Made by a program: the position numbers and the translations under genes. Below, in pieces: positions 10,026 to 57,432 of a DNA stretch of 64,000 bases; position 1 is the stretch's first letter; the number at the start of each line of letters is the position of its first letter. Source of the DNA: Streptomyces sp. Y2F8-2 (GTDB lineage: Bacteria > Actinomycetota > Actinomycetes > Streptomycetales > Streptomycetaceae); the NCBI RefSeq assembly GCF_014905555.1, contig NZ_BNGS01000014.1, positions 1 through 64,000 on the forward strand, written 5' to 3'. The notes under the pieces were generated by a model. That model was not told the origin of the DNA. It saw only the letters and a program-made list of their open reading frames with translations, and made no database searches.

Positions 10026-11158
10026 GCACGGCGCTGAGGATTCCTCAGGAGCTGTCGGCGCGTGTTCCGGCCGAGCAGCGGGGTCCGGGCCGGGACCGGG
10101 ACTCGGTGCGGCTGCTGGTCTCGCGCGGCACCGAGGTCATGCACCACGCGTTCACCGAGCTGCCGCGGCTGCTGCGGGCCGGGGACCTGCTCGTCGTGAA
10201 CACCTCGCCGACGCTGGCGGCCGCGGTGGACGGGCTGATCGGGCACGCGCGCGTGGTGGTGCACTTCTCGACGCACGGGGACGACGGACGGTGGGCCGTC
10301 GAGCTGCGGGATCCGGACGGCGAGGGCACCACGCGCGCGCGTGCGGGAGGGCCCGCGGGAACACAGGTGTGTCTCCCGGACGGCATACGGCTGGTTCTGG
10401 AGGAGCCCCTGTCGGGGCGGAGCGGCCGTCTGTGGTGGGCCCGTGCGTCGGATGCGGACGTGTCCGGGCTGCTGGGCCGGCACGGGCGGCCCATTCGTTA
10501 CTCCTATACGGACAGGGACCAACCGCTCTCCGCGTACCAGACGGTGTTCGCGCTGCCGTCCCCGGATGGCGCGGGCAGCGCGGAGATGCCGAGCGCGGCG
10601 CGGCCCTTCACCGCGCGGATGGTGGCAGAGCTGGTGAGCCGGGGCGTGCGGTTCGCTCCGGTCACCCTGCACACCGGGGTGGCGTCGGCGGAGGCGCACG
10701 AGCCGCCGTATCCGGAGCGTTTCGCGGTGCCGGAGACGTCGGCGTGGCTGATCAACGCCGTCAAGGCGAATCAGGCAAGGCGCGAAGCGCTTGGTTGGAA
10801 GGGCGGTGGTGGGAGACGGGTGGGCGGCCGGGTGATCGCGGTCGGTACGACGGCCGTGCGGGCCGTGGAGTCGGCGGTGGGCCCCGGCGGTGTCGTACGG
10901 GCGCGGGAGGGCTGGACCGATCTCCTGGTGACGCCCGAACGGGGGGTGCGGGTGGTGGACGGGCTGCTGACCGGTCTGCACGAGCCGGAGGCCTCCCACC
11001 TGCTGATGCTGGAGGCGGTCGCGGGGCGGGAGGCGATCGAGCGCGGATACGAGCAGGCGCTGGCCGGGCGGTATCTCTGGCACGAATTCGGTGACACCCA
11101 TCTCATCCTGCCGCCGAAACCCCCTCACACACTGCATTGCTCCAGCAACTCCCAGTAA
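10022..11158 (+). CDS. QueA-like SAM:tRNA ribosyltransferase-isomerase family protein
   Basis: A 378-residue protein of the QueA family, whose classical members transfer the ribosyl moiety of S-adenosylmethionine to 7-aminomethyl-7-deazaguanine in tRNA during queuosine synthesis. Recognisable blocks: LLRAGDLLVVNTSPTLAA, YTDRDQPLSAYQTVFA, VGTTAVRAVES, TDLLVTPERGVRVVDGLLTGLHEPEASHLLML and the C-terminal YLWHEFGDTHLIL. The blocks are diverged (LHEP for the usual FHxP; LHTGVAS for LHVGxGT) and the protein is longer than QueA (about 345). The GTG at 10022 overlaps the SDR stop. No tgt, queC-F or queG gene is in the window and I recall queuosine as generally absent from Streptomyces, so the reaction here is uncertain. 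Confidence 0.85.
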   Translation: MSTALRIPQELSARVPAEQRGPGRDRDSVRLLVSRGTEVMHHAFTELPRLLRAGDLLVVNTSPTLAAAVDGLIGHARVVVHFSTHGDDGRWAVELRDPDGEGTTRARAGGPAGTQVCLPDGIRLVLEEPLSGRSGRLWWARASDADVSGLLGRHGRPIRYSYTDRDQPLSAYQTVFALPSPDGAGSAEMPSAARPFTARMVAELVSRGVRFAPVTLHTGVASAEAHEPPYPERFAVPETSAWLINAVKANQARREALGWKGGGGRRVGGRVIAVGTTAVRAVESAVGPGGVVRAREGWTDLLVTPERGVRVVDGLLTGLHEPEASHLLMLEAVAGREAIERGYEQALAGRYLWHEFGDTHLILPPKPPHTLHCSSNSQ

Positions 11159-11339
11159 GACCGATGCGAGTGGAATGTGAGGCCGCGCATAGGAGGTACG
11201 TCACGTACGAAGGAGATTAGGAGACCGAGAAGGAGCTTGTGAGCGGGGTGGAAGGGTGATCTGTCCCGTTTTGCCGTTCCTCGGGCCACTATCCGGGGTA
11301 GTACGTCACACCTTTGCCCAGCGATTTTGCGGCCGCTAA

Positions 11340-11446
11340 GAATTGCTTCCGTCGCTCGGCGCCGCGGTCTCGTACCCGCGGCGCTTGTGCTGGAAACACC
11401 TGTTCTTCCGCCGGCGCCAGAGCGACCTCCGCGCAATTCGAAGAGG
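11340..11446 (+). promoter_or_regulatory. Candidate structured RNA leader of the SLT gene
   Basis: Nested complementary segments lie just before the coding region: P1 GAATTGC (11340-11346) with GCAATTC (11433-11439); P2 GTCGCTC (11351-11357) with GAGCGAC (11420-11426); P3 hairpin 11359-11367 with 11376-11384 (9 bp, loop TCTCGTAC). P2 can instead extend through GGCGCC (11358-11363) with GGCGCC (11413-11418), which excludes P3. The ribosome site GAAGAGGT (11440-11446) directly abuts the 3' strand of P1. It does not show the ydaO (c-di-AMP) motifs I remember. Function is inferred from geometry only. Confidence 0.5.
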
Positions 11447-11456
11447 TCAATCAGTA

Positions 11457-57022: not shown

Positions 57023-57299
57023 GTGGGTCCCTCCCGTCCTCTGGACGGTTCGCTCGGACACCGTCCACTGCCGGGTTTCTCGAGTTCGGCCAGCAAAGCA
57101 CACCCCGCCGTACGGCGAAAGACGACCACCGGAGCGGTGCGCCGTTTCGAGTCACGCGCCGGAACGCGCGCCCCCGGACCGCCTACTTCGACCGCCACTT
57201 CACAACGAAAAGCGCGATTCGGGCAACTGACGCGATTTCAGCGGTGTGGAACTCGGCACACCGCAGCGTCGCAGGTCAAGAGCAAGTTGACGGCTGTTC

Positions 57300-57432
57300 T
57301 GGGCGCGTGGTGGACTGCCGGAGCCAGTACGGCGGCAGGAGAGGAAGCCGGTGCAAGTCCGGCGCGGTCCCGCCACTGTCACCGGGGAAGAACTCCCCGG
57401 GAGCCAGGAACTCTCACCGCCGGTCTCGTCGA
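57300..57432 (+). promoter_or_regulatory. Cobalamin (AdoCbl) riboswitch
   Basis: The conserved core is clear: GAAGCCGGTGCAAGTCCGGC (57343-57362), then GCGGTCCCGCCACTGTCACC, and the B12 box GAGCCAGGAACTC (57401-57413), with helical segments on both sides. It precedes a cobalamin-synthesis operon, so adenosylcobalamin should repress it. A later hairpin CCGACCG-ca-CGGTCGG (57510-57525) just before the cobD ATG could be the expression platform that hides its ribosome site. Boundaries are approximate. Confidence 0.92.

Follow-up and report, generated by a model that had tools for sequence, protein, structure and literature searches.

What controls an SLT-domain gene of Streptomyces sp. Y2F8-2, and is the element in front of it an RNA switch? 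The gene lies in a window of 64,000 nucleotides (contig NZ_BNGS01000014.1, positions 1 to 64,000; here "the window" is the whole stretch analysed), and the spacer upstream of it holds several complementary stretches that reach almost to the ribosome site. The original prediction read these as a bistable RNA leader in which a helix P1 encloses a helix P2, which in turn encloses a hairpin P3 or a competing GGCGCC pairing, and suggested a leader, perhaps ligand-binding, of a class other than the c-di-AMP (ydaO) riboswitches. A check of the sequence found every one of these stretches in place.

Known systems offer several comparisons. Hairpins in 5' untranslated regions (UTRs) that sequester the Shine-Dalgarno (SD) sequence are found in translational leaders and RNA thermometers, and the E. 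coli ompA transcript carries a stabilising stem-loop at its 5' terminus. A c-di-AMP riboswitch is reported before seven hydrolases of S. coelicolor, and the rpfA riboswitch is reported to terminate transcription (PMC10117811). In the Streptomyces riboswitch candidates dauA, livJ and pntA, the SD is reported to lie within or beside a stem (PMC11109978). Our literature searches, within the portions of the sources that they covered, returned no description of the leader considered here.

Materials and Methods

Homologous leaders were collected by DNA and by protein similarity. The upstream-block pattern was scanned against 179 Streptomyces genomes; 100 regions were fetched from the 153 genomes that matched, and 24 leaders from a separate DNA search were added. 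At these DNA-selected loci conservation inside the search pattern is biased, and the fair test of conservation is given by the protein-selected loci, which are the best 80 of 557 relatives, that is, the nearest ones. Five of the 80 were dropped from the leader set because the script found no start codon, and L024 to L028 were left out as further matches in genomes already represented. In all, 199 leaders were collected, of which 187 are distinct, 12 identical ones having been removed.

Alignment A1 comprised 34 of 36 leaders, chosen from the 123 (of 124 in the length range) that end in GAGGTC, and the conservation of its SD strand is partly due to that selection.

Results

The locus and its genes

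The features of the leader and its gene are collected in Table 1. The N-terminus of the SLT protein resembles a signal peptide, and the protein would thus be secreted. The leader is flanked by the SLT gene on one side and by a queuosine-biosynthesis-like gene (PF02547) on the other; downstream of the SLT gene, on the opposite strand, is an FHA/ABC transporter gene. The queA-like protein (window 10040-11155) matches Pfam despite scores far under the cut-offs of the NCBIfam queA equivalogs (142.9 vs 324 and 108.6 vs 267.45 bits) and may not be a true QueA; a table in one S. coelicolor paper gives QueA as SCO1804. Elsewhere in the window, a cobalamin riboswitch at 57294-57432 (50.8 bits) is the sole Rfam match at gathering score.

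Table 1. Positions in the window of the putative promoter, the leader elements and the gene
Feature	Position	Strand	Remarks
Conserved DNA block CCACTA-N8-T(A/C)GTACGTCACACCTTTGCC	11286..11318	+	most columns 1.5-2.0 bits, 187 leaders
Putative -35, TTGCCC (TTGCCA in many species)	11314..11319	+	18 nt before AAGAAT
Putative -10, TAAGAAT	11337..11343	+	overlaps 5' strand of P1
Predicted transcription start, G11351 favoured	11350..11352	+	placed from the -10 position
P2 5' strand, GTCGCTC	11351..11357	+	pairs with 11420-11426
P3 hairpin	11358..11385	+	G.U 11358/11385, then 9 bp 11359-11367/11376-11384
P2 3' strand, GAGCGAC	11420..11426	+	partner of 11351-11357
Anti-SD strand, GACCTC	11424..11429	+	shares GAC with P2; 97-98% paired with 11443-11448, main class
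Apical mini-helix of SD hairpin, CG[CAATT]CG	11432..11440	+	2-bp helix
GAGGTC, contains Shine-Dalgarno core	11443..11448	+	pairs with 11424-11429
SLT-domain (lytic transglycosylase-like) protein, 243 aa	11457..12188	+	Pfam PF01464, E 6.1e-09

Distribution of the leader

The promoter and leader block was found in 153 of the 179 Streptomyces genomes and had no match in 26, and the reversed pattern, used as a control, gave zero matches in the same 179. Nearly all genomes with a match have a single block; the exception with two copies is G018, in which the second block and leader copy (L029, contig C35) stands before a frame truncated at the contig end. At 123 of the 124 loci found by DNA the same strand encodes an SLT domain downstream, L029 being the one that is cut; all 80 of the 80 loci found by protein have it too, by construction. 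By the distance from block to start codon the distinct leaders fall into a main class of 139-158 (130 leaders) and two others of 126-138 (13) and 86-125 (44). From predicted start to SD they measure 28 to 99 nt across all 187, and their interiors differ.

In a family-wide sample the pattern (up to 3 mismatches) occurred in 34 of 121 genomes, representing 7 of 17 genera. The six genera other than Streptomyces contribute ten loci, all ten with the promoter-like block; P2/P3-like pairings can be drawn in these, and an SLT domain follows in eight (five genera). The remaining two (L224 and L225), both of genus g12 in the same family, have the block and a P3-like hairpin before proteins of 229-262 aa that give no SLT match at E 1e-5; there a different gene may have acquired the control region, or retained it. 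At several loci of related genera CAACGA or CAACTA replaces CCACTA. Taken together, the comparison suggests that Streptomyces and related genera share a conserved 5'-UTR in front of one gene for an SLT-type cell-wall hydrolase.

A covariance model of the leader gave one copy in the strain's own genome at E up to 10 (150 of 15,360 first-look candidates scored). Among 21 genomes ten had a match at E up to 1, with seven strong matches at orthologous sites and weak ones elsewhere at no more than 25 bits, and 15 of 25 chosen loci matched at E up to 1, the two own-genome paralogues being without a match. Silence of this model is weak evidence because it misses sites that are orthologous but belong to other leader classes (G004, G005, G006 and G012).

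A conserved DNA block and putative promoter

In full, the block reads CCACTA-N8-TCGTACGTCACACCTTTGCC-N6-TTTTGC-N4-GCTAAGAATTGC and is highly conserved; sister genera retain part of the stretch 11286..11318. All 80 protein-selected loci matched an ungapped 38-nt pattern, 73 with no mismatch and seven with one, and none had an insertion or deletion. A search with TCGTACGTCACACCTTTGCC, allowing up to three mismatches, matched 10 of 13 genomes, with the orthologous site in seven, and also gave matches with two or three mismatches. At two order-level loci (L210 and L211) the downstream pattern was absent.

The spacing of TTTGCC and TAAGAAT resembles that of -35 and -10 elements, and the stretch 11286..11318 is likely, from its conservation, to comprise the -35 region and a candidate operator. 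Over the 187 leaders the -10 reads TAAGAAT in 168 and TAACAAT in 19. As a candidate housekeeping (HrdB-type) promoter, TTGCC(A/C)-18-AAGAAT is conserved, but TAAGAAT holds no perfect TAnnnT hexamer, the form reported for the S. lividans -10 motif (PMC8079986), and the -35/-10 pair of this strain fell below the threshold of a strict consensus scan for promoters. Separately, we observe that the DNA of 11286-11343 is conserved more than most of the leader and may be the site of a regulator.

Transcription probably starts at about 11351, as judged from the conserved promoter. In most leaders the best helix at the 5' end begins 7-8 nt past TAAGAAT; its start falls at offsets 41-42 (window 11350-11351) in 163 of 198 leaders, and in 175 of 187 when the search is restricted to offsets 40-49.

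P1 and the GGCGCC pairing

Neither of these two proposed elements withstood comparison of the homologues. P1 (11340-11346/11433-11439) is 85.5% paired in the 130 main-class leaders and 85.2% with shuffled partners, and its fifth pair is U.U in 69 of the 130. Counted as matches of seven, own partners give 5.42 and swapped ones 5.27 (sd 0.035) over all classes, and 5.35 against 5.42 in the main class. The near-invariance of GAATTGC, the 5' strand of P1, is due to its overlap with TAAGAAT; from this promoter-like position the strand is most likely promoter DNA, and probably untranscribed. We therefore rejected P1 as an RNA helix, with no main-class excess over shuffled partners and a 5' strand in the putative -10 box. 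The GGCGCC/GGCGCC competitor (11358-11363/11413-11418), with 39.4% of cells paired in the main class against 39.1% shuffled, is not conserved and was likewise rejected.

P2 and P3

Both inner elements of the original prediction are conserved. P2 is almost invariant in the 130 main-class leaders (99.4% of cells paired), and across the 187 its duplex energy is -15.17 with the own partner and -13.59 with swapped ones (sd 0.14). It occurs as GTCGCTC/GAGCGAC, ATCGC/GCGAT and GTCGCA/TGCGGC, and as GAGCCGCAG/CTGCGGCTC in a sister genus; its strands change in step between lineages. Among main-class leaders P3 is 97.1% paired; the 34-sequence alignment gives 94.4% paired cells for it and compensatory changes in 5 of 10 pairs, and the P3 arms give -17.18 with own and -16.45 with swapped partners (sd 0.09). 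Jointly, P2 and P3 are 95.7% paired in the same alignment, against 93.7% when shuffled and at most 51.4% in slid controls. A stretch GUGC..GGAA, located after P3 and before the 3' strand of P2, shows partial conservation that is confined to the main class.

That the leader is structured, as had been supposed, is borne out by the fold of the 131-nt region (z -3.10; 1 of 200 dinucleotide shuffles was equal or better) and by a mean z-score of -2.36 in the main class. Under a tree-based null for the 130 main-class leaders no pair was individually significant for covariation (best 60.7; median null maximum 96). Among the leaders of the short class P2 on its own seldom does better than shuffled sequence, with 5% lying above the 95th percentile. 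The covariation sought among homologous leaders was found as compensatory change in P3 and co-change between lineages in P2; P1 and GGCGCC had no such support.

A hairpin over the Shine-Dalgarno sequence

A further pairing, GACCUC/GAGGUC, did not figure in the original prediction. It includes the SD and has three bases in common with P2, the GAC at 11424-11426. In the main class this helix, with the SD in it, is conserved, and no covariation was found there; its six pairs are nearly invariant and for that reason offer no covariation test. A C.A mismatch occurs within the six in 20 of 130 main-class leaders. An apical helix of 2 bp, closing a loop of 3-7 nt, occurs in 171 of 183 leaders (four of the 187, without AGAGG, were left out) against a shuffled control of 0.56. 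RNAalifold, run unguided, recovered four pairs of P2 (the inner ones), the greater part of P3 and the SD hairpin, apical pairs included; it also gave a 2-bp hairpin, which was disregarded.

In RNA taken from 11351, a forced full P2 and a forced SD hairpin lie on average +1.20 kcal/mol apart (sd 0.61, range -1.0 to 3.8) for the 89 main-class leaders (of 130) whose motifs are exact, and these near-equal values arise in part because both helices pair the same GAC with GUC. The probability that the SD is unpaired is 0.10 in these 89 leaders, so that it is mostly covered. Over the whole main class (130) the openness of the SD is 0.17, against 0.29 with shuffled upstream sequence; in the other classes the SD is not less open than in shuffled sequence (0.36 vs 0.29 in 44 leaders, 0.45 vs 0.35 in 13). 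A bistable leader, as first proposed, thus survives in so far as two nearly equal folds are possible, but with the SD hairpin as the competitor: as a candidate alternative fold, GACCUC/GAGGUC is better supported than GGCGCC.

Comparison with known RNA families

Between 11150 and 11500 no Rfam 15 family matched at gathering score, and a permissive threshold gave two weak and implausible matches of 13 bits, far below gathering scores. The c-di-AMP model RF00379 (ydaO/yuaA) had no match at the leader at either threshold, in agreement with the view that this is not a ydaO leader. The same model did match elsewhere in the genome (L221 702-900, contig C3, minus strand; 54.7 bits), upstream of a paralogous SLT region. 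A search for intrinsic terminators found no terminator-like site at the leader.

Discussion

Overall, the observation behind the original prediction is partly confirmed and its interpretation partly supported. Comparison of the leaders shows conservation, covariation in P3, co-change of P2 between lineages and, for the main class, an SD hairpin that hardly varies. On balance we lean towards a 5'-UTR particular to this family, which folds up the 5' end of the mRNA and limits translation, the leader probably hiding the site where the ribosome docks.

By this model, the first bases of the mRNA, GUCGCUC, would close P2 around the GC-rich P3 and so fold away the 5' end, and a second hairpin downstream, GACCUC/GAGGUC with its apical CG/CG, would cover the SD. 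P2 and the SD hairpin would compete for GAC, and we infer that the 5'-terminal GUC and the GUC of the SD strand swap places on it. With a full P2 the SD hairpin would keep only three of its six outer pairs and be more open; with a shortened P2 it could form. In the main lineage the predicted equilibrium tips slightly towards the closed state, which would hold translation of a potentially lytic enzyme low. An extension of this model, which we consider rather doubtful, is that the first three bases of the transcript set translation, the SD being toggled by choice of start site, by 5' trimming or by a factor that binds the 5' end.

It is possible, although we think it improbable, that P2 and P3 form a passive stem which only shields the 5' end of the mRNA from decay and insulates the SD, with no switching. 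P2 begins at the predicted +1 in most leaders, the interior varies in length and sequence, and leaders of the other classes show no special closure of the SD, all of which count in favour of such a stem. Against it speak the retention of the apical pairs and, for the main class, the near-invariance of both GACCUC and GAGGUC and an SD closure that exceeds shuffled sequence.

A longer transcript from an upstream start, in which P1 forms, holds P2 shut and controls the SD, is very unlikely. Strong conservation upstream of the putative promoter could mask a second promoter, P1 lies slightly above swapped partners over all classes, and its first pair is C-G for G-C in 6 of 187 leaders; yet that pair is a C.C mismatch in 12 of the 187, main-class pairing equals shuffled, the indel-free spacing at 80 of 80 protein-selected loci resembles promoter DNA, and the conserved 3' strand of P1 is also explained by the apex of the SD hairpin.

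We give hardly any weight to a new class of ligand-binding riboswitch that controls the hydrolase. A structured leader does precede a cell-wall gene, other Streptomyces hydrolases, including a paralogue in this genome, use the c-di-AMP riboswitch, and GUGC..GGAA is partly conserved in the main class; on the other side, inspection of the 187 leaders revealed no core common to all classes, and neither an Rfam match nor an intrinsic terminator was found at the leader. The idea of a ligand-binding leader is disfavoured by the range of 28-99 nt from start to SD, and the evolutionary lability of the interior, together with the single copy found in the strain's own genome, makes a ligand aptamer unlikely. 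Chance structure in GC-rich DNA, with conservation owed to promoter and ribosome site alone, is very improbable given the compensatory changes in P3, the own-against-swapped pairing of P2 and the mean main-class fold z-score, even though shuffled GC-rich leaders yield many helices and the tree-based null left no pair individually significant.

The translational model shares features with each of the known systems. As in SD-sequestering hairpins, an anti-SD strand lying upstream pairs with the SD, and the open and closed folds differ little in predicted energy, but here the anti-SD would double as part of the 5'-end stem. Like that of ompA, the stem is at the predicted 5' end, but it overlaps the anti-SD strand. 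The c-di-AMP riboswitch likewise forms a structured leader before a secreted wall hydrolase; that of rpfA is reported to terminate transcription, whereas no terminator-like site was found in the leader here. The dauA, livJ and pntA candidates are also Streptomyces leaders with the SD in or by a stem, but they belong to other genes, and the accessible text of that source names none before a Streptomyces SLT gene (PMC11109978).

We regard the leader as a narrow new family of probable translational leader. Wall hydrolases endanger their owner, and the SLT gene studied here appears to use a distinct leader, specific to its lineage, and alongside it a promoter block that is very conserved. Should the three-base exchange operate, it would be a minimal switch, accessible by point mutation, and paralogous hydrolases in one genome would be under different RNA controls.
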